Part shown: positions 7,898 to 63,158 of the stretch, piece by piece
Position numbering within the stretch: position 1 is the first letter of the stretch
Layout of the letters: every line of letters begins with the position of its first letter
Assembly (NCBI GenBank): GCA_936450465.1
Contig: OW388292.1
Span: forward strand, 4,731,756 to 4,795,755
DNA: 64,000 bases
Direction: 5' to 3'
Source: Gibbula magus
Taxonomy: Eukaryota; Mollusca; Gastropoda; Trochida; Trochidae
Translations under genes and position numbers: made by a program
The notes under the pieces: generated by a model
What the model was told of the DNA's origin: nothing
Database searches by the model: none
What the model saw: only the letters and a program-made list of their open reading frames with translations

Positions 7898-10800
7898 GTG
7901 AGTTATGTTGTGAGGGAACTCATGTGTTCCTCTAATATTTTGAAATAATAGTAAATGGTAGTTGTAGTGTATGGATTGAAGTTTTCAAGTTGATCAAAGT
8001 AAATAAAAAAAATACAATACAATTCCGCGCTAGTAAAGAGACAAGATTTAGTGTTTTATCATGACAATTATATGTTTCTTGACTCGTAGTGCGATGTAGT
8101 ACAATGTAGTGCGATGTAGTACAATGTAGTGCGATGTAGTACGATGTAGTACAATGTAGTGCTATTTAGTACGATGTAGTACGATGTAGTGCGATGTAGT
8201 GCGATGTAGTACAATGTAGTGCTATTTAGTACAATGTAGTACAATGTAGTGCTATTTAGTACGATGTAGTACAATGTAGTGCGATTTAGTACGATGTAGT
8301 ACGATGTAGTACAATGTAGTGCGATGTAGTACAATGTAGTGCGATGTAGTTCGATGTAGTACGATGTAGTACAATGTAGTGCGGTGTAGTACAATGTAGT
8401 GCGATGTAGTACGATGTAGTACGATGTAGTACAATGTAGTGCGAAGTAGTACTTTGAAGTATCCAGCTTCTTTGTAATTAGTTTTATGACCAATGAAGAT
8501 TGATACTTTTAATTCGCTATGAATACTTTAGGTAATTAAGTACGTGTCAAACTTTCGGAAAAAAACGTTCAATTGATATCATTCCAAGGAAGGTTTTACA
8601 AGTTTATAACTGCTATAAACTTAAACCAAGTTGATGCAGTGTAAAGACACATTATCGGCAGAAATATGCTTTTATGCTGAACCATCATTTTGTAAACGTT
8701 TCAGTCGTTGACCACGGAATGGTCTTTTGATCCCGGATGTTAATGATTTTACGAGATATTAGTAAATGGCATGATCTACATCGCTGTGTCAGCAGAATTA
8801 AAATTGTATACCAAAGTACTCACGAACATAGACATATTATGTTTGTTTTTTTGGTCATTTTTATATATTTTGAAACCGCTAAAAGTATGTTAGGTAAATA
8901 TCCGATGACATTCCTTCTTAATCTAATAACAGATAATTACAGTAAGTATCTTAATCAAGTAACATATAAACGTCAAAACCCATTTTATTTCTATTTCCGT
9001 GAGAACTTCACGTTAATCCTCATGACCAGTTTATCTGTTAAGTTTAGCCAACTTCACTTATTTCAATTGTTGCATACTGCTTACTATACATTGTACACCG
9101 TACTTGGAGTCGTGTTCAATACCCCGAGTTAATCCTGATTGTTGCTGTGTTGCAGCTGCCCAGTACTTCACGGGTCAGATCGAGCTGGCCAATGAGTACA
9201 CAGATGACCTGTCCGACACGGACAGTGAAGCTTACAGGACACTCACGTCCCAGCTGCGGCAAGTTGTAAGTGTCGCTACCATAGAACAGATAAACCACAC
9301 GTCTGTTTATAGCACATATACATGTTTTTTTTCTTGTTTTTTTTTTATATAGAGATACGTTAATTCTAATTAACATATCAAGCAAATACAAAGTTTCACT
9401 CTTGATTTAATGAATAACAAATAAGAAAAGGTCTAAGATAATAATAACAACGTCTTCTGTTGTGCTTCCTTCCTATTCTTATAGTTATTTATAATTTAGA
9501 ATGATACTAAGGAATCCTCGTCCAGGAGTTTTCAAACTAAGGCATTTTGTCCTTATGGCTTTATATACTTTGCTTGTCTGCTGTGTTTTTCCTGCATATT
9601 CGTCAACCGACATGGCCTTTATAAATTTACTGCATTGAATCATTTATTTACCAAACACTTGAATTATATTTTACTTATCCGTGTATCCGAACCTCAGAGG
9701 CCAGGTTATTTGTATATAAAGAACAATAAAGCTGTCATGTTCTCTTTTTCATTCACCGATATTGAATCAATTACTTGGAAATATTTGTACATATACAAAG
9801 AGCTGTTGGTATTAAAGTTAAAAAAAGATACCATGCAGAAAAGTGAAAGTATTGTGAATTTTGGTTGAAAAATAAAACAAATTGTGCTAAACCTGTCCTT
9901 CCAAGATAGCCGTTAAATTGAAATGTTTTAACTTGTTTTTTCGCATGATTCAAAATATTCAAATGATCCAATTACGCTATCTTACAATGATTCTTACAAG
10001 CTTTGTAATATATACAGTAACTGACAATGTATTGCTAATTCCATTATTGACAATAACTACAATGGCGGCCAATTTGTCACCTAAAGTGATCTTGTCATTT
10101 GGAAAATAAAACCATTAATGAATACAAGGAAAATGTTGAAATAACTTACATCACGCATTCCTCTTAACTACAGCAACAATTCCATGACCTATGTCTGTTA
10201 GCAAACCTCAAATATTGAACTACACCGCCCTGTATTACTAGGATAGTTGATGTTAGCTAACTAGAATTCAACCCTCATCTCATCGTCAACCAGCTTCATG
10301 GTCTACACGACCCTGTATTACTAGGATAGTTGATGTTAGCTAACTAGAATTCAACCCTCATCTCATCGTCAACCAGCTTCATGCTCTACACGACCCTGTA
10401 TTACTAGGATAGTTGATGTTAGCTAACTAGGATTCAACCCTCATCTCATCGTCAACCAGCTTCATGGTCTACACGACCCTGTATTACTAGGATAGTTGAT
10501 GTTAGCTAACTAGAATTCAACCCTCATCTCATCATCAACCAGCTTCATGGCCTACACCACTCTGTATTACTAGGATAGTTGATGTTAGCTAACTAGAATT
10601 CAACCCTCATCTCATCGTCAACCAGCTTATTTGCTCTACACGACCCTGTATTACTAGGGTAGTTGATGTTAGCTAACTAGGATTCAACCCACATCTCATC
10701 GTCAACCAGCTTCATGCTCTACACGACCCTGTATTACTAGGATAGTTGATGTTAGCTAACTAGAATTCAACCCTCATCTCATCGTCAACCAGCTTCATGG

Positions 10801-13800
10801 TCTACACGACCCTGTATTACTAGGATAGTTGATGTTAGCTAACTAGAATTCAACCCTCATCTCATCGTCAACCAGCTTCATGGCCTACACGACCCTGTAT
10901 TACTAGGATAGTTTATGTAAGCTAACTAGAATTCAACCCTCATCTCATCGTCAACCAGCTTCATGCTCTACACGACCCTGTATTACTAGGATAGTTGATG
11001 TTAGCTAACTAGGATTCAACCCTCATCTCATCGTCAACCAGCTTATTTGCTCTACACGACCCTGTATTACTAGGGTAGTTGATGTTAGCTAACTAGGATT
11101 CAACCCACATCTCATCGTCAACCAGCTTCATGCTCTACACGACCCTGTATTACTAGGATAGTTGATGTTAGCTAACTAGGATTCAACCCTCATCTCATCG
11201 TCAACCAGCTTCATGGTCTACACGACCCTGTATTACTAGGATAGTTGATGTTAGCTAACTAGAATTCAACCCTCATCTCATCGTCAACCTGCTTCATGGC
11301 CTACACGACCCTGTATTACTAGGATAGTTTATGTTAGCTAACTAGAATTCAACCCTCATCTCATCGTCAACCAGCTTCATGCTCTACACGACCCTGTATT
11401 ACTAGGATAGTTGATGTTAGCTAACTAGGATTCAACCCTCATCTCATCGTCAACCAGCTTCATGGTCTACACGACCCTGTATTACTAGGATAGTTGATGT
11501 TAGCTAACTAGAATTCAACCCTCATCTCATCGTCAACCAGCTTCATGCTCTACACGACCCTGTATTACTAGGATAGTTGATGTTAGCTAACTAGAATTCA
11601 ACCCTCATCTCATCGTCAACCAGCTTCATGCTCTACACGACCCTGTATTACTAGGATAGTTGATGTTAGCTAACTAGGATTCAACCCTCATCTCATCGTC
11701 AACCAGCTTCATGGTCTACACGACCCTGTATTACTAGGATAGTTGATGTTAGCTAACTAGAATTCAACCCTCATCTCATCGTCAACCAGCTTCATGGCCT
11801 ACACGACCCTGTATTACTAGGATAGTTGATGTTAGCTAACTAGAATTCAACCCTCATCTCATCGTCAACCAGCTTCATGCTCTACACGACCCTGTATTAC
11901 TAGGATAGTTGATGTTAGCTAACTAGGATTCAACCCTCATCTCATCGTCAACCAGCTTCATGCTCTACACGACCCTGTATTACTAGGATAGTTGATGTTA
12001 GCTAACTAGAATTCAACCCTCATCTCATCGTCAACCAGCTTCATGGCCTACACGACCCTGTATTACTAGGATAGTTGATGTTAGCTAACTAGAATTCAAC
12101 CCTCATCTCATCGTCAACCAGCTTCATGCTCTACACGACCCTGTATTACTAGGATAGTTGATGTTAGCTAACTAGAATTCAACCCTCATCTCATCATCAA
12201 CCAGCTTCATGGCCTACACCACTCTGTATTACTAGGATAGTTGATGTTAGCTAACTAGAATTCAACCCTCATCTCATCGTCAACCAGCTTATTTGCTCTA
12301 CACGACCCTGTATTACTAGGGTAGTTGATGTTAGCTAACTAGGATTCAACCCACATCTCATCGTCAACCAGCTTCATGCTCTACACGACCCTGTATTACT
12401 AGGATAGTTGATGTTAGCTAACTAGGATTCAACCCTCATCTCATCGTCAACCAGCTTCATGGTCTACACGACCCTGTATTACTAGGATAGTTGATGTTAG
12501 CTAACTAGAATTCAACCCTCATCTCATCGTCAACCAGCTTCATGGCCTACACGACCCTGTATTACTAGGATAGTTTATGTAAGCTAACTAGAATTCAACC
12601 CTCATCTCATCGTCAACCAGCTTCATGCTCTACACGACCCTGTATTACTAGGATAGTTGATGTTAGCTAACTAGGATTCAACCCTCATCTCATCGTCAAC
12701 CAGCTTATTTGCTCTACACGACCCTGTATTACTAGGGTAGTTGATGTTAGCTAACTAGGATTCAACCCACATCTCATCGTCAACCAGCTTCATGCTCTAC
12801 ACGACCCTGTATTACTAGGATAGTTGATGTTAGCTAACTAGGATTCAACCCTCATCTCATCGTCAACCAGCTTCATGGTCTACACGACCCTGTATTACTA
12901 GGATAGTTGATGTTAGCTAACTAGAATTCAACCCTCATCTCATCGTCAACCAGCTTCATGGCCTACACGACCCTGTATTACTAGGATAGTTTATGTAAGC
13001 TAACTAGAATTCAACCCTCATCTCATCGTCAACCAGCTTCATGCTCTACACGACCCTGTATTACTAGGATAGTTGATGTTAGCTAACTAGAATTCAACCC
13101 TCATCTCATCGTCAACCAGCTTCATGGTCTACACGACCCTGTATTACTAGGATAGTTGATGTTAGCTAACTAGAATTCAACCCTCATCTCATCGTCAACC
13201 AGCTTCATGCTCTACACGACCCTGTATTACTAGGATAGTTGATGTTAGCTAACTAGAATTCAACCCTCATCTCATCGTCAACCAGCTTCATGCTCTACAC
13301 GACCCTGTATTACTAGGATAGTTGATGTTAGCTAACTAGGATTCAACCCTCATCTCATCGTCAACCAGCTTCATGGTCTACACGACCCTGTATTACTAGG
13401 ATAGTTGATGTTAGCTAACTAGAATTCAACCCTCATCTCATCGTCAACCAGCTTCATGGCCTACACGACCCTGTATTACTAGGATAGTTGATGTTAGCTA
13501 ACTAGAATTCAACCCTCATCTCATCGTCAACCAGCTTCATGCTCTACACGACCCTGTATTACTAGGATAGTTGATGTTAGCTAACTAGGATTCAACCCTC
13601 ATCTCATCGTCAACCAGCTTCATGGTCTACACGACCCTGTATTACTAGGATAGTTGATGTTAGCTAACTAGAATTCAACCCTCATCTCATCGTCAACCAG
13701 CTTCATGGCCTACACGACCCTGTATTACTAGGATAGTTGATGTTAGCTAACTAGAATTCAACCCTCATCTCATCGTCAACCAGCTTCATGCTCTACACGA

Positions 13801-16800
13801 CCCTGTATTACTAGGATAGTTGATGTTAGCTAACTAGAATTCAACCCTCATCTCATCGTCAACCAGCTTCATGGTCTACACGACCCTGTATTACTAGGAT
13901 AGTTGATGTTAACTTACTGGGATTCAACCCTCATCAACCAGCTTCATGGTTTACGTTCTGATACATCTCGACTCGTAACTTGGATAAATCACCGACTTGG
14001 TCAGCTTAAGCTATGACATTCCTTAAATTTTTATTCACGACTTGGCCTCATTGAATATATAAAATATCCTGCTTTATGTCGAGATGTTATTGGTGTGGGA
14101 TCTCAGTCGTGAATATGTACTGAAGAAGCGGATATGAGTTTCGATTGAAGCCATTTGATTGGATTAAAGTTCAAGCAAGGTAGTTTACAAGTCGTGAATG
14201 AATCCAGGGTAGACGTGAGCTACACCCTGTCAGTTATATATTGGTAGTCCAAGAGATGTTGAAACTAACCTGAGTTATATATTGGTAGTCCAGGGGAGGT
14301 TGAAACTAACCTGAGTTATATATTGGTAGTCCAAGAGATGTTGAAACTAACCTGAGTTATATATTGGTAGTCCAGGGGAGGTTGAAACTAACCTGAGTTA
14401 TATATTGGTAGTCCAGGGGAGGTTGAAACTAACCTGAGTTGTATATTGGTAGTCCAGGGGAGGTTGAAACTAACCTGAGTTATATATTGGTAGGCCAGGG
14501 GAGGTTGAAACTAACCTGAGATCGTTATATATTGGTAGTCCAGGGGAGGTTGAAACTGACCTGAGATCGTATTCAGCTAACGTTTTAATGTCTGATAGAG
14601 AACGATGAACCAGTAAATGCGCATGTATAAGAGCCTATATAGCACCCATTGGATACTGTCCATAGATCCGAGACAGGGTTGTTGGGATAAAACAAAGGTT
14701 CTGGACGTGAGCGTTTATTCACCACATGCTGCTGGATGTCTATAGGTCCTAACCAGAGCAAAGATACCAACAAATTTGCAAATGCCTGTTTGCAGCTTCT
14801 ACAGGCCTTCCAGAGTCAGGACGTGACGGGCATCCTGCACATTGATGTGGTCAGCATCGCCTCAAACAGGGTGCTGGTCACTTTCGAGGTGGCGGTGGAC
14901 AAGGTGAACTCGGGTGGACGTCAGTACCTGCAGAGTCAGTACAACCAAGGACTGACCAATATCGCCCACTGGGACGAGGCGGAGGGACTGGTCAAACTGA
15001 AGGGAACCAACCTCGTGCTGGGGACGAATGGGAGCATCGCCCTCTATATCAGACCCATCAGTGGTGAGTTACATGTATATCGAACTCATCAGTGGTGAGT
15101 TACTTGTATATCAGACCTTTCAGTGGTGAGTTATATTACTTGTATATCAAACTCATCAATGGTGAGTAACTTGTATCTCCAACCCATCAGTTGTTAGTTA
15201 CTTACATACCCAACCCATCAATGGTGAGTTACTTGTATATCCAACCCATCAATGGTGAGTTACTTGTATCTCCAACCCATTGGTTGTGAGTTACTTATAT
15301 ACCCAACTCATCAAAGGTGAGTTACTTGTATATCCAACCCATCAATGGTGAGTTACTTGTATATCCAAACCATCAGTGGTGAGTTAGTTGTATATCCAAT
15401 CCATCAATGATGAGTTACTTGTATATCCAACTCATCAGTGGTGAGTTACTTGTATATCCAACCCATCAGTGGTGAGTTACTTGTATATCAAACCCATCAG
15501 TGGTGAGTCACTTGTATATCCAACCCATCAGTGGTGAGTTACTTGTATATCCAACCCATCAGTGGTGAGTTACTTGTATATCAAACCCATCAGTGGTGAG
15601 TTACTTGTATATCCAACCCATCAGTGGTGAGTTACTTGTATATCCAACACGTCAGTGGTGTTTTGCCGTTAAATACCATATCCTAAAAACTCTACAAGTC
15701 TACAGGAACTTATGTTTTATTTCTCTTGTGCATCCGTGTATTGTTTACATTGATTGTATGACATATAATAAATATTGCAACATCAAATTTAACATCCTTT
15801 TACCACGTATATCTTTAAATTCAAATTATTCATAAATGTATTTTTTCTCACGACCTAATTTACACTTTACATAAACAAACATCATGTTTTAACATAAATA
15901 AAAATGTCAGTCAAGAGTCAAACAAAGTTCACATGTAGAAGCACTTAAACTTTTCAAACTGACCTTAACTAGAGCTTACATTGATCTTATTTTTATTTTA
16001 TTTTATATTATATATACAAAATAGAACTTTAATTTTAACAAAAAGAAGATATTCTACTACAGATGCGAAGATACGAGTATCAATAAATACTCACATTGAA
16101 ACTACGTTGTGTAAGAAGAAAGTCCACATTTTCTATTCATCAGAGTTCCCAAAATAATTACCAATTAGATAGAAAAGTAGATAATACAGGTTGGTCGTCT
16201 CCTAGATATATAACGATCTCATCTCATCTCATCTCATCTCATCTCATCTCATCACGTCATCGTATTGCTACATGACGTCATTCTATAGCTTTGTTGCCTC
16301 ACTAACTGAATAGAATAAATGACTAGCTATAGCATACGAGTTTATTTCACTTACTAGGATAGTATGTTATTCGAATCAGTGATTATGTTTCGTAAAATCT
16401 CAATGTTTAATTAAACAAATTATCAAATGATATAGTCGACAATGTAGTACTGATGTGAATAACTCATGCACGTGACGATCGACACACGGTAGTGTTTTCC
16501 TGGGAGCCCACCTCTCCTGAACGATGATGTTTAAAGAATCGAATGTCTCCGGTGGTTGAAATGTGTGCCTTGACAAATGGTTTTGTATTTTTTAAAACAA
16601 TGCAATCATTTTAATATTAAATGATGGACAATTAAAACAATCATATTTATAATTTGTTTGTAAGAGTTGTGTTTTAATGACAAAACTGAAGAAAGTAAAA
16701 GGGAAGGTGACTTATTATGAGTTTGAAACGGCGTCAGTGGCCAGGTGATCAATATTTACCTGCACTTTTACCTATCGGGTACGTACTGAGTATCAGAAAC

Positions 16801-35705: not shown

Positions 35706-36325
35706 CTTAATTTTCACTTAAGTATATGTTACCATAATTAGAATGCATACATTAATGCGTTACATTCTTCTGAATATTCAGGAAAAAATCAAAAATGCTT
35801 ATTTTCGGACCGCTAAAAACGTTTGCGAAGTTTGAATTATACAATTTTTTAATGGATAGGTTCTACATAAACGTTTTAGTTCTTGAAATTTTACATAAGT
35901 AGGTGTCAATAAAGTTCAATATTATAATTGTATAATTTTTGAGGAAAATGGTGATTTTCAAACAATCTTCTTTGACCGGTCACACGTAAACTATGAGAGA
36001 CGGATGCTTGAACACTGTTGTCCTAAATAAAATGATACATCTGCTTCAAAATGAGCTACTAAACATATTGGTATCTTTGGTGGTTTACGACAATTCTCCA
36101 AAGAAAATACACTTCGAAAAGTCTAAAAATCACAAAGTTTCTTATGTTTTGGCAAATGTTCAAATTGTGACCTAACTATCAACCTTAACATGATATATAT
36201 ATAAAGCCGAACTGTTTGGTAACGTACCTGCATCAGATTCCAATACGTAACTTTGATATGTCTTCATGTTTTAGTTATGTCTCTTTGATACATTGTATTA
36301 CATTATATTAAACTGTACATTGCAG

Positions 36326-36761
36326 TTGTGCGACTAGCGAGCCGGATCAGTTCCGCTGTATCAGTTGTCGTCAGGAGTTTATCTGTGACGAGGACCTGTA
36401 CAAACACCTGTCCAGTTCCAGACATCCATACTGTTTCTACTGCGGCCCTGATGAAGATATCAGCCAACACACATTATCAGACCATTTCGAAATAATACAT
36501 TCGAACTTCACGTGTCCTGAGTGTTACGAGTTCTTCTCCTTGAGACACACCTGGAGACAGCATCTCAGGACTCACTGGGACTACCAGGAGCCTAGACGTC
36601 TCTATCTGCGCGATGTCATGGTGCCTGGAGAAAGTCTGCAGGATTTTGCCAATCGGCTGAGTCCTTCTAAAGAATTTTATGAACGCTGCTCTGAAATCGT
36701 CGGCCGAATTGAAAAGTTCATGAACCACAACACTTCTTTCAAGAATGGAAGCATTCTGATG
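36326..36761 (+). CDS. Exon A1: three zinc fingers and linker
   Basis: Acceptor ACATTGCAG, donor CTGATG|GTGATG; one leading base, then 145 codons, phase 0 out. Finger 1 is C-x2-C-x12-H-x5-H (C11, C14, H27, H33). Finger 2 is C-x2-C-x13-H-x4-H (C36, C39, H53, H58). Finger 3 is classical C-x2-C-x12-H-x3-H (C63, C66, H79, H83). A 62-residue linker starting WDYQEPRR contains the pre-catalytic helix of the OAS core. Confidence 0.88.
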
Positions 36762-39700
36762 GTGATGTATACTTTTAATATGTAATCATTTCATTGTAAA
36801 CGTTGATGATGTTTAGTACCAAAATTAAGAAATAGTATTTTTGTGTTTGTAATTTAATAAATAAGAAATATTCCAACATATTACATTTGCAAAAAACACA
36901 CTTTAATAACTATCAGCGCGAATGTGAACCTCCTTTCTAAAAAACAAAAAAGGAGAATTTGAAACACCAAGGACCACACCTGAGAACCTCTGACCCTTGA
37001 CGTGAAGAGGGATTGAACGTTGAAATAATCCTCATTGTTCCGGTCTCATAGTTTGTTGTTTTGTAATAGATTTCACATGCATGGATCAAATCTTTTTTTG
37101 TTGTTGAATAATTGCTACACTTTCTTTATTTGAGTCATAACAATTAGGAACACATATTTTTGGCTGCACGATGTATCTAACTCTCCGATTGCCTTTGGTA
37201 TTTTCTTGAAGGTGTATCCATTGTGTTGTTATATAGGGGTCAATTATTCCCAAAGTTATAAATGGTGTTATTTTTCGAATAGTACTGACTCACAGTGCAG
37301 TCCTTTAGTGTCAACATTGAAAACAACGGGCTTAAATTATGAAACTTGGGATGAATGATCAATTGGCATGTAGAAATTGCCTAGGATCCATATTTTTTTT
37401 ACCTCGGGAACCTGGTCACGTGACCTAAAATCCAAAATGGCCGCCAAAATTCTGTTAAAATCCTTTCTAAACCAAATAAATAATTACATGCATGGATTTA
37501 GCAAGATTTTTTTTACATTTTAAGTGAATGTGTACAGAATACATCTACTTCAGCACACATAATCCCTTATTTGTTTTATTTTATTGCATATTTTGTAGAC
37601 AAAAAGTCAAAAGTTTTTATAGATTTTTGGTTGTAGCTTTTTAATTGATTGTTTTACTTTGTTTGATCTATGACCATTCTTGCACGTCGGACATGCTTAT
37701 ACACAATGTCTTATATGTATATGTTCAATATGTACAGCTACTTTTCCAATGTTTAAGTTTGAAATTAAACACCTGAATTTGTTTTGTTTCCATGACTTCA
37801 CATCCAAAATGGCCGCCAAATTTCCGTTAGTTCTAAGTCAAATAAAGACAAAAGTAAGGAGTGATATATGATCGAAAACCTGACAATGTACTGCAATTGA
37901 TGCGGGTCAATTAGTCCAAGGTAATTAATTTCAACAGACAAAAAATTAGGTTCTAATTGTTTAAGAGGTCATATAACTACTGTATTTTAATGGGACGTGC
38001 AGTTTCGGTTTCTGCACATGTATAATGATGTTAGAAACTAATAATTATGATATAAATTGCGATTGGGGATGAATATGCAAGGTGAGCGAAATTATTTGAA
38101 ATGAAGCCAGCACATAGGGTTTTAAATACAAATAAGATATTATTAAAAACGAGGTGAGGTGAGGTGAGTTAGGGTTTAACGCCGCTTTCAAGAGTATTTC
38201 ACTTATATTGCGGCTGCTAGTATTATGGCAGGGAGAAAGCCCGCAACGCCATGTGGCTATGCATTGCGGTGAAACCTGCGAGCATCGGCTGGAACTAGCG
38301 AACCATGGGTGGTACTGCACTGAAATTCAGTGTAGCATTGCACCCAAACCTTACTGCGTGTAGAACAGTTCTCTACTGCAGACAAAGTTGCCGAGCCCCT
38401 GGCGGGATTCGAACCCCGGACCTCTTGATCCGAAGCCGAACGCGCTAACCACTGCGCTATCCCGCCCCCCATTAAAAACGACACATGCATCTTAACCATG
38501 TCGTATATATCAGTTTGTAAGGATCAACTTAACAATACATCGTTTATATTGAACTAATGTAATAAGAGTTCTACTGAATTAATAAAACTTGAATCATCTA
38601 GGTTAGACGTAAGTGGTTCTGCGATCTCTCTGAGATAGATCCTGCAACTTTAGTAACAATTAGATAGTTGCTGATAGTTGAGGTATACATGTACACTACG
38701 TACTAAATACATTCAGGCTGGCTCCGTGGGCAAGAGGACAGCGCTGGCGGATGGTGCTGACATTGACATGATGTACTACCTGAACATCTCAAAACTGGAC
38801 GACATGATGGACACCCTCCCAACCATCATTGAACGCCTCAAACAGCATGTCCAGAACGGTGACCTCAACTGGGCAACTGGTTTGAAGTTTGTGAAAACGA
38901 CGCCTTTCTCCGTTCAGTTCCAACTGAGTATAGGGAACCAGCCCCACATCCCTGTCGACCTCCTGCCTGTTGTGCACATCCTGAAACCGAGCGCAAGCAA
39001 AGGTTAGTTGACTAACCACAGATTGTCAATTACGACAGTCATGTTTACTACTAATATGAAATATTCGTGAATCAGAGCAATGAGTGCCTGGTGCTTTCAT
39101 CCAGACGACAAACTGCAAGGTCTACAGAAGTTAGTTGAGGAAAGAAAGGTTGGTACGGGCGAAGCTCTCTTTGCAATTAGATCATTGAACATATATATCG
39201 GTTCCAGTTATCCTATTTTATTTCTGCGGATCATAGTGGTGTAGTGGTAAGCTTGCACCCCAAAGGTTCGAATCCCGGTAGAGACACCAATAATTAGTGA
39301 CCTGGGTCTCATACTGTGTTGTGTCCCTGGGCAAGGCACTTCATCCGCATTGCACTCAGTCCACCCAGCTGTTTAAATGGGTACCTGAACACGCCACATC
39401 GTCACCGAACAGCATTGCGTTGGATATATAAGGCGTTTAACTGATCATTAATATCAGTAATAGTACAGTTTATTACTCGCCCGTGTAAGAACTGCAGTGT
39501 AATATTTATACGGCAATATTAAACTAGTGTAATACCGCCGCGTGTATGACGTCACAATAGTTTGCGGTTATTACGTCACAATTGGAGTAACGTCGTCACA
39601 ATGGTGTCGGACTGGCGGAAATCATAGCTTCAGAGCCATGTCGGCTATTTCGCTGGATTATATGTTGGCGAGTAATAAACAGAATACTAAACTCCCTTCT

Positions 39701-41495
39701 ATTGAATACCATTTTTATTAAACTCGTGAATGATTTGGTATCAAACTCGCTTTCGCTCGTTTTATACAAAATCATTAACTCGTTTAATAAAAATGGTATT
39801 AAATAGAAGGTCGTTTAGTATCCTCTATGTATGTTGCGAATATTTGGATAGGGTCGGCTGCATATTTTGTTGATTCCAGAGAAGTTGTACACCAGAATGA
39901 AGACGATGGACAGAAAGAAACAGGATTACTGCAAGCGATGTCTGTCCAAGGTGCAGGTGGACTTCGTGAGGAAGGTACCACGCAACCTGAAGGACGTCAT
40001 CAGAGTGGTCAAGTCTTGGGTCAAGAAGATCAAAAAGGTTAACGAATCTTATGATTCAGAACTGTTACGGTTTCTATTCAACATTTCAATAAACGGAGAT
40101 CCCAAACTAGGCTGATGGTGGCTATAGATAGTCTGTAAGCTTTAGATGATAGAATATGAATGAGAGTAGAGTTTACAGTGTAACGGCACAATTAATCTTA
40201 AATATCATGGCCATAGAAAGAGTTCAAAATTGAAACATACAAAAATTATTCAGTTGTGTTAAATTTGAAAAATATTTACCATGTATACTCTACTCGAAGA
40301 ATTGGCCCATTAAAACGTTTAATTCTAAATAATCTATTGAAAGAAATTACCCATTAACTACACTTATATATTTATTGCAGGATGAGCGATGTGGGAGTGT
40401 GTTGTCCTATTTCTGTGAGCTGGTTGTGATCAGGACCTGGATGAACCAGAGAAAACCAGTTAACCATGATATAGACCTCCACGCCTTTGTTTGGCTCGTC
40501 CTGTATGAACTCTGCTTCTGTGAAACTATCCGCATCACGTGGCCCGAACGTTATCAACACCAAGATTTCACAGAGGAAATGTGAGTGTATTGGCACTTTG
40601 TCATCAGTTTACAGCTAACTGACACGTACATCTAAAGCTCACTTCTCTAGAAAGGAACAAATTTATCATCTTAAAGATTTACATTTGTTACTCATGTCAG
40701 AACAAATGAACTCAAGCCTATTCAATAAATACTTTAGCTGCACCCTACAGAAAGACGAATCGCTGTGATAAGTACAACGTTAAAGAATAAGGGAACTCAG
40801 AAACTCCTAAATAATCATATACAATATCAGTTTGAAGACAGTCACATGTTTCAATCTACAACAATGGAAAATGTAAATGGTTTGAACTATGGATTTATGA
40901 ACTATGGCGACTTATTGCTCATACATACCATACAAAATACAGAGGTATGAAACGAGCGAAATCGATTTTGATACCAAATCATTAACGAATAAAATGGCAT
41001 TAAATGAATGAATGTTAAGTATTCTTTTGGTTGCCTACCAAAATTAACCAAGATCCCACGAGTGATGTACGAGGCGGTACGATCGTTGGTTGCTACATTG
41101 CAACTCCAAGCTATTGTGACATAATATTTGCATTGCTGTTTAAATATTGCTCTGCAGTATCTTTCAAGAACGGGTAATGAATAAACGTATCATATTTCAG
41201 CGACGGCCCCATGGTCCTGGATCCTGCCAACCCGTTCTGTAACGTGGCCCCAAAGATACAGCACGCTGCTGTCATCAGTCGGAAAGCAAGACAACTCCTC
41301 TTTAAACAGACCAACACCGTCATAAATCTATCTGATGATGATCTCTATGAAATGAAAGAAATGGAGAATGTCACCAAGTCTCGATGTGGCACGAAATGTT
41401 GTCTTGCTGTAGTAATTATTCTCTTTCTTTTGGTCATCTTCCTTGCTTGGTATTTCTGGCCAAGACCCGAAAAGTCCCGAATGCGATGGAGTTGA
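36326..41495 (+). CDS. Zinc-finger/OAS-like nucleotidyltransferase with C-terminal membrane anchor, copy A
   Basis: Exons 36326-36761, 38717-39002, 39880-40037, 40381-40580, 41201-41495; all GT-AG with consistent phases; 457 residues seen, ending in TGA. Order: three C2H2-type fingers (9-83), a linker, an OAS-type nucleotidyltransferase core (146-~240), an OAS1_C-like helical half (~241-395), then a 19-residue hydrophobic helix (428-446) and an 11-residue basic tail. OAS hallmarks: AGSVGKRTAL, the metal-binding pair in DGADID (Asp160, Asp162), a third Asp in PVDLLP (Asp226), LKDVIRVVKSW and MVLDPANP. OAS enzymes make 2'-5' oligoadenylates from ATP when bound to dsRNA (known). Activity and ligand here are inference. 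The N-terminal finger module and tail anchor are unusual for OAS. The start codon lies in an unseen upstream exon, since the first exon enters in phase 2. Copy B follows 23 kb downstream on the same strand. Confidence 0.88.
36762..38716 (+). other. Intron A1, containing a SINE
   Basis: GT-AG intron. Two segments around 37430 and 37800 share CCAAAATGGCCGCCAAA, suggesting a diverged internal duplication. The tRNA-derived SINE at 38145-38470 is on the minus strand. Confidence 0.75.
38145..38470 (-). mobile_element. tRNA-derived SINE with conserved central domain
   Basis: On the minus strand the tRNA-like head (38395-38467) begins GGGCGGGATAGCGCAGTGGT, with a B box GGGGTTCGAATCCC. It is followed by a body that ends in the reverse complement of GGGTTTAACGCCGCTTTCAA. 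That TTTAACGCC core resembles the central domain shared by metazoan SINE superfamilies (possibly the Nin-DC type). It is not a functional tRNA gene. Confidence 0.75.
38717..39002 (+). CDS. Exon A2: nucleotidyltransferase catalytic core
   Basis: Phase 0 in, phase 1 out, 95 codons. Starts AGSVGKRTALADGADIDMMY: the G-S-x-G-K loop and two metal-binding Asp. It ends with PHIPVDLLPVVHIL, the third catalytic Asp on its strand. Spacing fits OAS proteins (GGSxGKGT...D-x-D...VDVLP). Confidence 0.92.
39226..39432 (+). mobile_element. tRNA-derived SINE (V-type body)
   Basis: A box near TAGTGGTGTAGTGGTAAGC, B box GGTTCGAATCCCG, then a conserved body with CCCTGGGCAAGGCACTTCAT and CACCCAGCTGTTTAAATGGG. The latter resembles a central domain widespread in aquatic-animal SINEs. 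It lies in intron A2. Confidence 0.7.
39470..39825. mobile_element. Two adjacent foldback elements in intron A2
   Basis: First: TTTATTACTCGCC near 39471 and its inverse GGCGAGTAATAAA near 39668. Second, 39688-39822: the left arm AATACTAAAC...CCATTTTTATTAAACTCG is matched by the reverse complement of the right arm over about 58 bp. Neither has coding capacity. Confidence 0.65.
39880..40037 (+). CDS. Exon A3: OAS C-terminal domain, first helices
   Basis: 158 nt, phase 1 in and phase 0 out. Encodes KLYTRMKTMDRKKQDYC, then VDFVRKVPRNLKDVIRVVKSW. It corresponds to the OAS segment in which LK-x-LIRLVKHW follows the QR-x-F region. The high Lys/Arg content fits nucleic-acid contact (inference). Confidence 0.9.
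40381..40580 (+). CDS. Exon A4: OAS C-terminal domain, middle
   Basis: 200 nt, phase 0 in and phase 2 out. Encodes CGSVLSYFCELVVIRTWMNQ, aligning with the OAS segment LPPQYALELLTVYAWE, and ends with ETIRITWPE then a GAAAT|GTGAGT donor. Confidence 0.88.
40581..41200 (+). other. Intron A4, no other gene seen
   Basis: GT-AG intron of 620 bp. Near 40985-41030 a short ATTAACGAATAAAATGGCATTAAA segment resembles the foldback arms at 39.7 kb. Confidence 0.75.
41201..41495 (+). CDS. Exon A5: OAS end motif plus membrane anchor
   Basis: One base, then 98 codons including TGA. Encodes GPMVLDPANPFCNVAP (the OAS P-V-x-LDPADPT-x-N motif), a hydrophilic spacer with acidic DDDLYEMKEME, then CGTKCC before LAVVIILFLLVIFLAWYFW and a basic tail RPEKSRMRWS. 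A single helix at the extreme C-terminus suggests a tail-anchored cytosolic-facing protein (inference). Confidence 0.9.
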
Positions 41496-49252: not shown

Positions 49253-49940
49253 CAAACAGTCAATAGCAGTATTGAAATGTCCTTTTTATTACAAGTGACA
49301 TTAAATGTGGCACTATGATAATTATTTCCAAATTATAATTATGTGCATCTGTTTACTAACATAACCTACTTCAAATTCTGAGGTGATAGATATTAAATCA
49401 GTGGTGGTGCTATGCCAGCTGATGTTAAAGCAACTAAAAGCAATCTGTAAGCAATGGTATGAATAGATTATATATTCTATGATTGTTTGGAATGGTTGTG
49501 AAATAAGTTTTCAGAATCTGAATAGTTTATTAAATGCAATAGAGGCATGATGAGGCAAAAGTGATTCGGCAATTAACATCAAGTCTCAAGAATTGATAGA
49601 AAAGTAAATGTTTGAAAAGTGAAATTATTTGATCTGTCAGCAACTCAAAATAAATCTTTATGCATACCCATAACGAATTCAATCAATATTCAGAAAGTCA
49701 AGTTTCTGTTTTGTCTCTATTGTCTTTCATCAATGTATCAGGATCTTCAGAGTCCTCCTGCAAAGTATTCCCAAAAATCAAAGTTTAGGGTTTTCATTAA
49801 ATTAGTATTCCAAACCCTGGATCCTCTGTCTTGTAACACACTATTCTTTATCAGTTCTTTAAAGCTGAATCGCTATGTGCTTTTCAGTGCATTTAGCAAG
49901 GCGCATAAATTTTTGAGACATGGTAGAACTTTTTCCTAGC
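49253..49940. other. No gene seen
   Basis: AT-rich sequence with one unsupported 106-codon open frame. Confidence 0.5.
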
Positions 49941-52694
49941 TTCCTTTATTCAGGTCGTAGAGCGCTGCTCGACACTCAGTGTCAACATGTTCCTTGTTTC
50001 CTTTATTCAGGTCGTAGAGCGCTGCTTGACACAGATATCAACATGTTCCTTGTTTCCTTATTCAGGTCGTAAAGCGCTTCTCGACACCGATATCAACATG
50101 TTCCTTGTTTCCTTTATTCAGGTCGTAGAGCGCTGCTCGACACAGAGCGGCAACATGTTCCTTGTTTCCTTATTCAGGTCGCAGAGCGCTGCTCGACACA
50201 GATATCAACATGTTCCTTGTTTCCTTATTCAGGTCGTAGAGCGCTTCTCGACACAGAGTGTCAACATGTTCCGTGTTTCCTTTATTCAGGTCGTAGAGCG
50301 CTGCTTGACACATTATCAACATGTTCCTAGTTTCCTTTATTCAGGTCGTGGATCGCTGCTCGATACAGATATCAACATGTTCCTTGTTTCCTTTATTCAG
50401 GTCGTAGAGCGCTGCTCGACACAGAGCGGCAACATGTTCCTTGTTTCCTTATTCAGGTCGCAGAGCGCTGCTCGACACAGATATCAACATGTTCCTTGTT
50501 TCCTTATTCAGGTCGTAGAACGCTTCTCGACACAGAGTGTCAACGTGTTCCTTGTTTCCTTTATTCAGGTCGTAGAGCGCTGCTCGACACAGAGTGTCAA
50601 CATGTTCCTTGTTTCCTTTATTCAGGTCGTAGAGCGCTGCTCGACACAGAGCGTCAACATGTTCCTTGTTTCCTTTATTCAGGTCGTAGAGCGCTGCTCG
50701 ACACAGAGTGTCAACATGTTCCTTGTTTCCTTTATTCAGGTCGTAGAGCATTCTCGATAGAGAGCGTCAACACGTTCCTTGTTTCCTTATTCAGGTCGTA
50801 GAGCGCTTCTCGACACAGAGTGTCAACATGTTCCTTGTTTCCTTTATTCAGGTCGTGGAGCGCTGCTTGACACATTATCAACATGTTCCTAGTTTCCTTT
50901 ATTCAGGTCGTGGATCGCTGCTCGATACAGATATCAACATGTTCCTTGTTTCCTTTATTCAGGTCGTAGAGCGCTGCTCGACACAGAGCGGCAACATGTT
51001 CCTTGTTTCCTTATTCAGGTCGCAGAGCGCTGCTCGACACAGATATCAACATGTTCCTTGTTTCCTTATTCAGGTCGTAGAACGCTTCTCGACACAGAGT
51101 GTCAACGTGTTCCTTGTTTCCTTTATTCAGGTCGTAGAGCGCTGCTCACCACAGAGTGTCAACATGTTCCTTGTTTCCTTTATTCAGGTCGTAGAGCATT
51201 CTCGACACAGAGCGTCAACATGTTCCTTGTTTCCTTTATTCAGGTCGCAGAGCACTGCTCGATACAGAGCGTCAACATGTTCCTTGTTTCCTTTATTCAG
51301 GTCGTAGAGCGCTGCTCGACATAGAGCGTCAACATGTTCCTTGTTTCCTTTATTCAGGTCGTAGAGCGCTGCTCGACACAGAGTGTCAACATGTTCCTTG
51401 TTTCCTTTATTCAGGTCGTAGAGCATTCTCGATAGAGAGCGTCAACACGTTCCTTGTTTCCTTTATTCAGGTCGTAGAGCGCTTCTCGACACAGAGCGTC
51501 AACATGTTCTTTGTTTCCTGTATTCAGGTCGTAGAGCGCTTCTCGACACAGAGCGTCAACATGTTCCTTGTTTCCTTTATTCAGGTCGTAGAGCGCTGCT
51601 CGACACAGAGCGTCAACATGTTCCTTGTTTCCTTTATTCAGATCGTAGAGTGCTGCTCGACACAGAGCGTCAACATGTTCCTTGTTTCCTTTATTCAGGT
51701 CGTAGAGCGCTGCTCGACACAGAGCGTCAACATGTTCCTTGTTTCCTTTATTCAGGTCGTAGAGCGCTGCTCGACACAGAGCGTCAACATGTTCCTTGTT
51801 TCCTTTATTCAGGTCGTAGAGCGCTTCTCGACACAGAGCGTCAACATCTTCCTTGTTTCCTTTATTCAGGTCGTAGAGCGCTGCTCGACACAGAGCGTCA
51901 ACGTGTTCCTTGTTTCCTTTATTCAGGTCGTAGAGCGCTTCTCGACACAGAGCGTCAACATGTTCCTTGTTTCCTTTATTCAGGTCGTAGAGCGCTGCTC
52001 GACACAGAGCGTCAAAGTGTTCCTTGTTTCCTTTATTCAGGTCGTAGAGCGCTGCTCGACACAGAGCGTCAACATGTTCCTTGTTTCCTTTATTCAGGTC
52101 GTAGAGCGCTTCTCGACACAGAGCGTCAACATGTTCCTTGTTTCCTTTAGTCAGGTCGTAGAGCGCTGCTCGACACAGAGCGTCAACGTGTTCCTTGTTT
52201 CCTTTATTCAGGTCGTAGAGCGCTTCTCGACACAGAGCGTCAACATGTTCCTTGTTTCCTTTATTCAGGTCGTAGAGCACTGCTCGACACAGAGTGTCAA
52301 CATGTTCCTTGTTTCCTTTATTCAGGTCGTAGAGCATTCTCGATAGAGAGCGTCAACACGTTCCTTGTTTCCTTTATTCAGGTCGTAGAGCGCTTCTCGA
52401 CACAGAGCGTCAACATGTTCCTTGTTTCCTGTATTCAGGTCGTAGAGCGCTTCTCGACACAGAGCGTCAACATGTTCCTTGTTTCCTTTATTCAGGTCGT
52501 AGAGCGCTGCTCGACACAGAGCGTCAACATGTTCCTTGTTTCCTTTATTCAGGTCGTAGAGCGCTTCTCGACACAGAGCGTCAACGTGTTCCTTGTTTCC
52601 TTTATTCAGGTCGTAGAGCGCTGCTCGACACAGAGCGTCAACGTGTTCCTTGTTTCCTTTATTCAGGTCGTAGAGCGCTGCTCGACACAGAGCA
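49941..52694. repeat. 57-bp minisatellite, ~48 copies, each with a 3' splice-site-like block
   Basis: Unit of 57 bp: TTCCTTGTTTCCTTTATTCA then GGTCGTAGAGCGCTGCTCGA and CACAGAGCGTCAACATG. Each copy has a polypyrimidine stretch followed by CAG/G. Units of 55-56 bp occur, and two larger blocks are duplicated (about 50290-50520 with 50850-51080; 51410-51545 with 52320-52455). Both strands stay open in 19-residue periods because 57 is divisible by three. I treat these as satellite, not genes. Confidence 0.95.
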
Positions 52695-59747: not shown

Positions 59748-60186
59748 AAACTGTTCTGCTACTACCGAGGCCTCTCTGTACCACTGTGTCAGATGCAGCA
59801 AGGACTTCAGACGTGACGAGGACCTCTACAAGCACCTGTGCAATTCGGGACATCCATACTGCTTCTACTGCGGCCCTGATAACATAATCACTTCTTCGTT
59901 ATCACATCATTTTAAGACGATTCATTCCAACTTCACATGTCCAGAGTGCCCCAGGGTCTTCTACCTGAGAAATGCATGGAAGAACCACATGAGTTCTCAC
60001 TGGGACTACCAGGAGCCTAGACGTCTCTTTCTGCACGATGTCATGGTGCCTGGAGAAAGTCTGCAGGACTTTGCCGATCGGCTGAGTCCTTCTAAAGAAT
60101 TTTATGAAAGCTGTTCTGAAATAGTCAGCAGAATTGAAAAGTTCATGAACCACAACACTTCATTCAGGAATGGAAGCATTCTGATG
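59748..60186 (+). CDS. Exon B1: three zinc fingers and linker
   Basis: One base plus 146 codons, phase 0 out (CTGATG|GTGACG). Finger 1 has YHCVRC...YKHLCNSGH, finger 2 YCFYCG...HHFKTIH, finger 3 FTCPEC...WKNHMSSH. Zinc ligands are kept while most other finger residues differ from copy A. The linker WDYQEPRR onwards differs at 6 of 62 positions. Confidence 0.87.
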
Positions 60187-63158
60187 GTGACGTTTATGTT
60201 TTAAATATGTTATCATGCTATTGTAAATTTGCTACTTACAAAGGCTGAAAATGCTTTGGATTCCCGACCGGTTTCACACTATTTAGTTATCATCATGGGA
60301 TCTTTATTAAATAAATTCGCTTACAGAGCGAGGCGAGGCGTAGATAATGCTACTGTGTCTCTGTTAAACTCTGTTTATCAACATCTTGAGAAACCTGCTG
60401 CCTATCTCAGAATACTGTTTGTTGACTTCTCCTCAGCCTTTAACACCATTCAGCCTCACATTTTGATTAAGAAATTAATTGATTTAGATATATGTCCTTC
60501 TCTGGTTAAATGGATAGCCTCATTCTTGACTGACAGGTCCCAATATGTCAAAATGAAAAGTTCTTGTTCCCGGACTGTGACTATTAACACCGGTGCTTCT
60601 CAAGGATGTGTATTGTCTCCAATACTTTTCACATTGTATCCTAATGACTGTGTAAGTTCTCAACCGAACTGTTCTAGGTTCAAGTTCGCAGATAGCTATT
60701 AGCAGTCTACTCTTTGACAGTGAGAATACATATAAAGGTGAAATTAACTTTTTGGAACTAAATGTATCAAAACAAAGGAACTTGTTATAGATTTTCGAAG
60801 GAATAAGCCAGCAGCTGCTGGTAGTCCAGTCATTATAAATGGAGATGTTGTTGAAGTAGTTAGTAGTTACAAATATCTTTGAACTCAAATTGATAATAAG
60901 TTAAATTTCTCTGAAAATACCGATCGTATTTATTATAGCAAGTGTCAATCTCGCCTTCATTTCCTCAGGAAGCTCCGATCTAACCACATTGACTCAAACT
61001 ATTTTGGCTCTTTTCTATAAAACCTGTGTTCAGTCTACTCTCATGTTCTCTATCCAATGTTGGTTCGGCCCCCTGTCACCAACAAATAGAAACAAATTAA
61101 ATAAGATAATTGAAAAAGGAGAGAAAATTTCTAATCGTATCTTTAAGACATTAGATGAACTTCATGAAGGACAGGCTCAAAATTTGGCTTCAAAAATTAT
61201 CTTTGACCCTTCACATGTTTTGCATGACTGTTTTGAATTGTTACCCTCTGGCTGTCGGTATAATGTACCGACGTGCAAAACCAAACGTTATAAAATGTCT
61301 TTTGTACCAAAGTCAATTTCTCCCATCATCATACTCTTTGTCCATGTTATATATCCATGTACGTATTCCATGTATTTATTATAAATTAATGTGTATAATT
61401 TTTTATTTATGCTCACTCAGTCGTGAAACAAATTCCCTAACGGGCAATACAAAATTATCTTATCTTATCTTATCAAGTTCCCATGATGATCATTGAACAG
61501 TGTGAAACCAGTCGGGAATCCAAAACATTTTCAGCCTTTCTTTAGGTGGATACTGGACAAAGAAACTATCTTTCTTATCTGATGATATAAATGTTGACTT
61601 TCCACAAGTTTATTTTTAAAGTATTAGAATTTGCAAATCTTGGCACAGTCGATGTTACATTACATTTACATTAGAGTTGAATCCTGCAGGATTTAGTACC
61701 AATTAGATGGTTGATAGTAAGGAATTACTACATGTTACACAGGCTGGCTCCGTGGGCAAGAGGACAGCACTGGGAGATGGTGCTGACATTGACATGATGT
61801 ACTACCTGAACGAAACCAGTCTGGACGACATGATCAACACCCTCCCAACCATCATCAAACGCCTCAAACAGCATGTCCAGAACGGTGACCTCAACTGGGC
61901 AACTGGTTTGAAATTTGAGAAAACTACGCCTTTTTCTGTTCAGTTCAAACTAAGCATAGGGAACCAACCCCACATCCCTGTCGACCTCCTCCCTGTTGTG
62001 CACATCCTGAAGCCGAACACAAAAGCCAATAGAGGTTGGTTGTGCACAGTTATGTGTCAGCGTTAATATTGATGTTTAATACTAGAAAGGACAACTCACA
62101 AGTCAGGGCCATGAATGCCTCTTGCAGACATTCTGAAGCAAAACTCCATGTCCAACATAATTAACTGCGGAAAGATGGGTCCTGGTCGGTGCTTTCGAAG
62201 CTCATTTTGCAGTCAGACGTTCATCAGTCAATGTCAGCTATCAATCAATCAATCAGTTATAACAACGTAATAACCTTCAGAGAGATTCGCAAACATTATT
62301 GTCTGCTGTCGAAATCTTGACAATACATTTCTATTGTAATGATAATAAATTCACAAATATTCAACTTCCCCTTGAATTAGTCTGATTTCAATATATGTGA
62401 AACAAAGAACTTAATGTCAGTACGACATCACACTTTCCAAGCTACATTCATTTATCTGAGATTATAACATTGCTGCATCCTGTTCCTCAGCTAGTGGGGT
62501 TCTATTGAATAAGTATCTGTTGATTTCAGAGGAGTTGTACACCAGAATGAAGACAATGGACAGAAAGAAACAAAAATATTGTCGGCGCTGTCTGTCCAAG
62601 GTGCAGGTGGACTTCGTGAGGAAGGTACCACGCAACCTGAAGGACGTCATCAGAGTGGTCAAGTCTTGGGTCAAGAAGATAAAAAAGGTCGGGGAGATTT
62701 ACGATTCTGAGCTGTTATGTTTATTTTTTACCATTCTAATGAATTAGGCTTGTAATGGCGGTCTGCAAACTTCACGTAAAGTGTGTAAAGTGTTAATGAC
62801 CTTGAAGAATTCGATCTGTCATCCGAACTATCTAACTAAAGGAACAACAAATCAAGGGCAAAACTAGGGCTTCAGTCCTATTGAATAGCAAAACGTTAAA
62901 CGCGAACTAACCTATAGGAAGAAATTACCCATAGACTGCCCTTGACTACTGACTGCAGGAGGAGAGATGTGGGAGCGTGTTGTCCTACTTCTGTGAGCTG
63001 GTGGTGATAAGGACCTGGATGAACCAGGGAGAACCAGCCAACCAGCATATAGACCTCCACGTCCTTGTCAAACTTGTCCTGTATGAACTCTGCTTCTGTG
63101 AAACTATCCGCATCACTTGGCCCGAACACTACCAGCACCACGATTTTACAGTGGAAAT
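59748..63158 (+). CDS. Zinc-finger/OAS-like nucleotidyltransferase, copy B (3' end outside window)
   Basis: Exons 59748-60186, 61743-62034, 62530-62687, 62959-63158; phases are identical to copy A, including the leading single base of the first exon, and 362 codons are visible. All finger Cys/His, the G-S-x-G-K loop, both Asp of DGADID and the Asp of PVDLLP are kept and the reading frame is intact, so the copy looks functional. The final exon (LDPADP-like motif and membrane helix in copy A) is not present before 64000, so anchor status is unknown. The nucleotidyltransferase exon is ~90% identical to copy A and the fingers ~59%. Intron 1 carries a LINE fragment between inverted repeats and intron 4 an inserted MITE. 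It is a tandem duplicate in the same orientation. Confidence 0.87.
60239..61543 (+). mobile_element. LINE RT fragment enclosed by ~66-bp inverted repeats, in intron B1
   Basis: The left arm (60239-60303) contains AAAGGCTGAAAATGCTTTGG and ATTCCCGACCGGTTTCACAC. The right arm (61476-61543), inverted, gives AAAGGCTGAAAATGTTTTGG and ATTCCCGACTGGTTTCACAC. Between them lies a 5'-truncated non-LTR element whose TTATC tail abuts the right arm. The LINE probably inserted into an older foldback element; no clear target duplication was found. Confidence 0.7.
60305..61475 (+). pseudogene. Rex/CR1-like LINE reverse transcriptase, truncated
   Basis: Encodes FVDFSSAFNTIQP, then GASQGCVLSPILFTLY and a damaged FADD-type site (FKFADS then frameshift). 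Next come KTKELVIDFRRNK, SSYKYL* and RLHFLRKLRS, and it ends in (TTATC)n. It starts inside the RT domain (5' truncation), with at least two frameshifts and one stop. It is the same orientation as the host gene. Confidence 0.82.
61743..62034 (+). CDS. Exon B2: nucleotidyltransferase catalytic core
   Basis: Phase 0 in, phase 1 out, 97 codons. AGSVGKRTALGDGADIDMMY and PHIPVDLLPVVHIL are retained. About nine substitutions and two extra codons near the 3' end distinguish it from copy A. Confidence 0.9.
62035..62529 (+). other. Intron B2, nothing inserted
   Basis: Shorter than intron A2 (495 against 877 bp) because the SINE and foldback elements present in A2 are absent here. Those insertions therefore probably post-date the duplication. 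Confidence 0.75.
62530..62687 (+). CDS. Exon B3: OAS C-terminal domain, first helices
   Basis: 158 nt as in copy A, phase 1 in and phase 0 out. ELYTRMKTMDRKKQKYC and LKDVIRVVKSWVKKIKK; only about three residues differ from copy A, making it the most conserved exon of the pair. Confidence 0.9.
62959..63158 (+). CDS. Exon B4: OAS C-terminal domain, middle
   Basis: 200 nt, phase 0 in and phase 2 out. CGSVLSYFCELVVIRTWMNQ is identical to copy A, then diverged at NQGEPANQHIDLHVLVKL. It ends at GAAAT|GTGAGT, so a further exon is required beyond the window. Confidence 0.9.

Follow-up and report, generated by a model that had tools for sequence, protein, structure and literature searches.

A window of 64,000 nucleotides on chromosome 4 of the mollusc Gibbula magus (contig C4:4731756-4795755; positions below follow window numbering) carries gene A, whose product is ordered as three C2H2 zinc fingers, a full oligoadenylate synthase (OAS) core in which the three catalytic aspartates are intact, and a predicted membrane helix at the C-terminus. 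The gene consists of five exons on the forward strand over 36327-41495, with AG/GT borders and phases that agree, and encodes 457 residues followed by a stop. Exon 1 (36327..36761) encodes, in a single open frame, the three fingers, a linker and the first OAS helix; it is stop-free from finger 1 through that helix (residues 100-145, aligned to OAS N-termini). Exon 2 (38717..39002) encodes the nucleotidyltransferase core, with the catalytic aspartate codons beginning at 38759, 38765 and 38957. The OAS1_C domain starts in exon 3 (39880..40037), continues through exon 4 (40381..40580) and ends in exon 5 (41201..41495) at LDPANPF, after which come a spacer, the putative tail anchor and the stop. 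The original prediction had placed fingers, OAS core and a hydrophobic helix on phase-consistent exons, and this five-exon rebuild bears it out. Since a single open exon encodes the fingers together with the first OAS helix, the case on which that prediction could have foundered, a finger exon and OAS exons belonging to separate genes, is ruled out at the DNA level. The joins it drew stand, but the structure is short of a beginning: exon 1 has no start codon before the fingers, its first methionine is residue 98, an in-frame stop lies at 36309-36311, and the 5' exon is lacking. The acceptor ending at 36325 implies such an upstream exon, and base 36326 on the forward strand is the last base of a codon begun there.

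A second copy with the same parts, gene B, lies 18 kb downstream of gene A in the window and was absent from the original prediction. Exon 1 of gene B (59749..60186), with the acceptor phase seen in gene A, encodes three fingers and the first OAS helix; exon 2 (61743..62034) encodes the catalytic core with the three aspartates present; exons 3 and 4 follow at 62530..62687 and 62959..63158, all on the forward strand. Exon 5 with the putative tail anchor is about 0.3 kb past the window end (C4:4796040-4796517). Across 358 aligned codons genes A and B show 81% identity; they keep 12 of 12 zinc ligands and are separated by an indel that is in frame. The ratio of nonsynonymous to synonymous divergence (dN/dS) between them is 0.26 for the finger part and 0.21 for the core; as judged from these codons, both parts are under purifying selection. 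It is very hard to credit that A and B are functionless, decaying duplicates. A retroelement fragment in intron 1 of gene B and broken relatives in an array on chromosome 15 would fit decay; dN/dS of 0.21-0.26 and coding sequence of about 1.37 kb in A and 1.57 kb in B, free of stops and frameshifts, speak against it. The fragment is an RVT_1 reverse transcriptase match (4.1e-14) at 60205-60699, in sense orientation.

The same domain order was sought beyond the source genome, and the fusion was found in three Haliotis proteins, two of which also carry the anchor. Protein-database searches, with a reach bounded by shared five-letter words, returned 7 proteins from 1068 candidates and 8 from 2088, 8 in all; the finger exon of gene A as query gave 16 candidates, none at E 0.01. 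The three Haliotis proteins are P0001 (named OAS1A-like), P0002 (uncharacterized LOC124153056) and P0008 (OAS1-like), with a C-terminal helix in P0002 and P0008. Like A and B they join a finger module to an OAS core, and in a tree of 14 core rows all five form one clade (support 100/99); they differ in that finger 1 is of the C2HC type and that P0002 has a long repeat spacer. No finger module aligns in the five other database proteins (Haliotis double OAS, Mytilus, one Mytilus-like). Two Mytilus-like proteins have a weaker C-terminal hydrophobic stretch, with hydropathy of 1.85 and 1.62.

The fingers of gene A lie on the forward strand at 36357..36425 (finger 1, C-x2-C-x12-H-x5-H), 36432..36500 (finger 2, C-x2-C-x13-H-x4-H) and 36513..36575 (finger 3, C-x2-C-x12-H-x3-H). 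Residues 1-90 thus hold three non-overlapping C-x2-C...H...H motifs, a number reached in none of 20000 shuffles, with two motifs in one. The full ligand pattern C-x2-C...H-x3-6-H is present in 3 of 3 fingers in both A and B, and three motifs occur in 0 of 20000 shuffles of each. The profile check proposed earlier gave a divided answer. OAS1_C is above its cut-off and the fingers as a set match solved chains, but the Pfam cut-off for a single C2H2 finger is reached by no finger of A (the best, finger 3, scores 15.7 against 25.2 bits). Among solved structures, a profile of five homologues matches the three-finger C2H2 stretch of zinc finger protein 568 (positions 8-86, E 6.4e-7) and telomere zinc finger-associated protein (positions 10-91, E 9.5e-6); it also matches OAS2 and OAS1, separately from the finger chains. 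TGEKP-type linkers are a hallmark of DNA-reading poly-zinc-finger arrays. The linkers in A and B are P-Y and S-N-F-T, not of this type.

The catalytic part is that of an OAS. Gene A scores 55 bits against Pfam OAS1_C (PF10421; cut-off 19.9), the domain that defines the OAS superfamily, and its core matches the solved structures of OAS2 (4.3e-20) and OAS1 (1.4e-10). SMODS remains below threshold (25 vs 26.5 bits), and Mab21 (PF03281) gives no match in gene A at E up to 1. Residues D160, D162 and D226, in GADIDMM and PVDLLP, align with the catalytic aspartates of OAS1 and OAS2, and all three are also present in gene B and the three Haliotis proteins. By domain and triad, A and B are classed by sequence as OAS superfamily members, and presumably make 2'-5' oligoadenylate; a 2014 paper by Pari, going by its title, is said to claim active OAS in protostomes. 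In human OAS1, Lys42, Ser56 and Thr203 are described as touching the bases of double-stranded RNA (dsRNA) (PMC7367156, seen in part). The equivalents in A and B in a profile alignment are Asn, a gap and Arg, so that 0 of 3 are kept; a single-sequence alignment sets Gly opposite Ser56. These contacts are not a defining trait of the superfamily. The residues for OAS1-type reading of dsRNA bases thus appear changed in A and B, with the catalytic part kept. Six cysteines (258, 261, 297, 305, 338 and 340 in gene A) are invariant in the cores of A, B and the Haliotis finger-OAS proteins; only 261 is common to all five finger-less OAS proteins aligned. They could form a zinc site within the core.

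The predicted transmembrane helix of gene A spans residues 427-445 (41400..41456, forward strand), with a mean hydropathy of 3.02 that was equalled in 1 of 5000 whole-protein shuffles. The C-terminal helices of B, P0002 and P0008 reach 3.48, 3.25 and 2.92, and the tail FLAWY(F/L)WPRPE is common to A and B. Tail-anchored proteins carry a lone hydrophobic helix, no more than about 30 residues away from the C-terminus. The 19-residue hydropathy maximum is followed by 12 residues in A, 16 in B, 5 in P0002 and 4 in P0008, which places all four helices within that distance. With 12-16 residues behind it, the helix of A and B is compatible with a tail anchor that would leave the fingers and the enzyme in the cytosol. 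Such proteins also lack a signal peptide and have a cytosolic N-terminus. The Haliotis N-termini before the fingers are short and, by eye, polar; for A and B the search for a 5' exon found none above chance.

The genome, 140 contigs and 1,470,318,725 bases, harbors further relatives. Protein A used as query (93 of 113 candidates scored) gave a list of 22 matches, among which A and B are the only close copies; other OAS loci in that list lie at C4:3.51-3.55, C4:61.48, C4:61.90 and C15:40.97-41.23 Mb, and a single chromosome 15 match, L030 or gene C, has fingers. The finger exon of gene C as query (150 of 1890 candidates scored) gave at least 123 matches. Among those listed, the strongest fall in C15:40.945-41.231 Mb. 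The weaker ones include A and B; most others are open frames on C6, C7 and C13 that match in the finger part only and look like ordinary finger proteins. Fifteen loci of the chromosome 15 array (L032-L046, C15:40945470-41231230) were examined. In eight of these (L032-L036, L042, L044, L045) a finger exon is open through the OAS helix, with finger 2 of L034 lacking one cysteine. Stops interrupt L037 and L040. In L046 the fingers sit in a separate exon, with OAS exons (L029) about 1.6 kb further on, and no intact fingers are seen at L038, L039, L041 and L043 in the DNA examined. Chromosomes 4 and 15 together hold at least ten open finger-OAS exons; in nine of these ten the three finger motifs are complete. 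The spacer between fingers and helix runs from 26 residues in A and B up to 347, the long spacers being tandem repeats.

Exon 2 is available at nine array loci, the DNA of the other six containing none. Seven keep the three aspartates, L043 is broken, and the third aspartate is replaced by tyrosine in gene C (L030/L031, C15:40969001-40976262, reverse strand); the exon 2 of L046, located in L029, keeps its catalytic aspartates. These counts bear on the idea that the proteins are catalytically silent, OASL-like signalling molecules whose core binds and does not synthesise. The tyrosine of gene C would suit that idea, as would a GGS motif whose GG reads AG in A, B and Haliotis; the triad kept in A, B, the three Haliotis proteins and seven of the nine array loci makes it improbable.

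The fusion is real and old, as indicated by the shared exon and by its recurrence in gene B, the three Haliotis proteins and the chromosome 15 array. In a core tree of 19 rows, A, B and Haliotis again form a clade (100/100), and gene C groups with L026, L021 and L022 (97/99); the chromosome 15 row L029 is placed elsewhere without support. Constraint tests used 17 of these rows, the two long rows C15_L029 and Hasin2_u1 being left out. Forcing gene C alone into the A, B and Haliotis clade was rejected (p-AU 1e-7). Forcing all four chromosome 15 rows (gene C, L026, L021, L022) into it was not (p-AU 0.204), and one old fusion with later finger losses is therefore possible. The history may instead have involved two gains, or fingers may have been transferred.

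The two halves of the protein have diverged unevenly between A and B. In the fingers dN is 0.27 and dS is 1.02 (95% 0.56-2.88), an imprecise value from only 83 finger codons; in the core dN is 0.06 and dS 0.28 (95% 0.19-0.39), which puts finger divergence at about four times that of the core. The contrast in dS was reached in 0 of 5000 permutations and in 6 of 358 circular shifts. Identity changes in a step at about 36571, at the end of finger 3 (near 59996 in B): 166 of 240 positions are identical before it (36331-36570), including one 30-base stretch of finger 2 at 29/30, and 169 of 180 beyond it, still within exon 1. Such a step would follow from gene conversion of the core or exchange of fingers, whereas selection on finger residues alone would not raise dS. 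The Haliotis proteins show a milder gap of the same sign at the protein level, with finger identities of 67, 80 and 67% against core identities of 81, 83 and 76% in the three pairs, lower for the fingers in 3 of 3. Five array exons give a summed proportion of synonymous differences (pS) of 0.48 in fingers and 0.39 in core, and of nonsynonymous differences (pN) of 0.20 and 0.15. Positive selection on the fingers was considered and rejected, as pairwise dN/dS among those five exons is 0.20-0.54 and never above 1. A tentative and rather doubtful extension is that vetigastropods keep a germline-diversified set of synthases, with a shared core homogenised by gene conversion and varied three-finger heads that drift or swap, so that one messenger pathway could serve many ligands.

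We regard A and B as tail-anchored oligoadenylate synthases in which the three-finger module takes over or adds ligand recognition, a reading to which we give a probability of roughly 0.55. It is favored by the selection on the fingers together with the changed dsRNA-contact residues, from which we infer that the fingers are the recognition or co-recognition head of a membrane-tethered enzyme. In such a mechanism, the C-terminal helix would insert post-translationally, leaving fingers and catalytic core on the cytosolic side of an internal membrane. The ligand of the fingers would be a nucleic acid or partner protein that marks infection; ligand binding or clustering would turn the core on, and the active core would synthesise 2'-5'-linked oligoadenylate or a related messenger. 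Copies with differing fingers and similar cores could broaden the range of ligands. The fingers may instead serve only to scaffold or dimerise the enzyme, or to bind proteins, with activation still coming from dsRNA on the OAS core. C2H2 modules are often protein-binding, the linkers here are not of the DNA-reading type and the core matches OAS along its length, all of which this alternative accommodates; the change of all three dsRNA base-contact residues and the greater variation of fingers than of core between copies do not sit well with it, and we hold it possible yet clearly the weaker account.

Several observations weigh against recognition by the fingers of an anchored synthase. With no TGEKP-type linker, the usual DNA reading by the fingers is unlikely. 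In the three Haliotis proteins the fourth ligand of finger 3 is missing, and P0001 (isoform X2) has no C-terminal membrane helix. The several array copies without intact fingers make the module dispensable for some relatives. Gene C has lost its third catalytic aspartate, and its two successive last-exon copies both stop soon after MDPANPF, with no membrane helix. Another gastropod, Aplysia, is reported to have yielded no OAS (PMC9334734). Finally, a search for the 5' start exon of A and B found none above chance. Comparison of the DNA upstream of A and B gave repeat-like matches only, none adjoining exon 1, and the best pair of candidate start exons (27/48) was equalled by 1 of 20 shuffled controls, the best pairs lying within tandem repeats.

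Translation starting at Met 98 would exclude the fingers from the product and reduce A and B to single anchored OAS enzymes with an untranslated finger stretch. The lack of an ATG before the fingers in exon 1 of A and B, and of an upstream coding exon above chance, is what such a start would leave behind. It is nonetheless a long shot, given a dN/dS of 0.26 in the fingers, the in-frame indel and the complete set of zinc ligands. In 9 of 9 array finger exons tested, the acceptor reads AG-G-ATG and so provides a start before the fingers directly after it; one split base followed by codons comes after the acceptor in A, B and all nine. The Haliotis gene models likewise begin before the fingers.

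Elsewhere in the window, an Rfam scan gave 0 matches at gathering scores. A weak IQCH-like ATP-grasp match at 14691-15095 (E 0.033, below cut-off) may mark an exon of a neighbouring gene upstream. Two tandem repeats occupy 10220-13935 (83-base unit, 45 copies) and 49933-52693 (57-base unit, 49 copies).

Known systems supply counterparts for the core and the anchor. Vertebrate OAS1 (4ig8, 1px5) shares OAS1_C, the DxD + D triad and the order of the core. It has no counterpart of the fingers or helix of A, the matches spanning residues of A from about 100 to at most 393, and its dsRNA base-contact residues are not those of A and B. A parallel to the anchor is mouse Oas1b, which in the portion of PMC13372824 available has a C-terminal transmembrane domain and an endoplasmic reticulum location and is described as having no 2-5A synthetase activity. 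Oas1b thus resembles A and B in its anchor and differs in that no fingers are mentioned (PMC13372824). The same portion describes OAS1 p46 as prenylated and OAS2 p69 as myristoylated, and states that the antiviral action of OAS1 p46, OAS2 and mouse Oas1b requires membrane attachment (PMC13372824). OAS1 p46 and OAS2 p69 share membrane attachment with A and B, but theirs is through lipid anchors and again no fingers are mentioned there. The putative anchor of the original prediction is therefore less of a distinction than it seemed, since Oas1b, OAS1 p46 and OAS2 p69 are also membrane-attached and the transmembrane domain of Oas1b is a plain parallel. The anchors of Oas1b and the snail proteins are presumably independent in origin. 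A further family of animal nucleotidyltransferase sensors, the cGLRs, includes some ankyrin or TPR fusions, with 87% single-domain (PMC9980059, in part); they differ from A and B in being Mab21 proteins of another superfamily (PMC10732462, in part). The available main text of the cGLR survey has no mention of 'zinc' (PMC9980059), the CD-NTase survey has, in its available part, none of 'zinc finger' (PMC10732462), and among the open-licence PMC papers listed by literature searches no title or abstract start points to a finger-OAS fusion.

What is already known, then, is the OAS enzyme and its membrane anchoring; what appears new is the finger fusion, with an unexpected multigene array behind it. 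The fingers are a candidate new way of aiming an old immune enzyme. To our knowledge, the sensing and signalling targets of OAS outside vertebrates are mostly open, and a separate recognition module with an anchor, present in many copies, makes the trigger of an invertebrate OAS directly testable. Set beside the repeated inventions of membrane attachment in mammalian OAS, the anchor of the finger-OAS proteins provides a protostome parallel.

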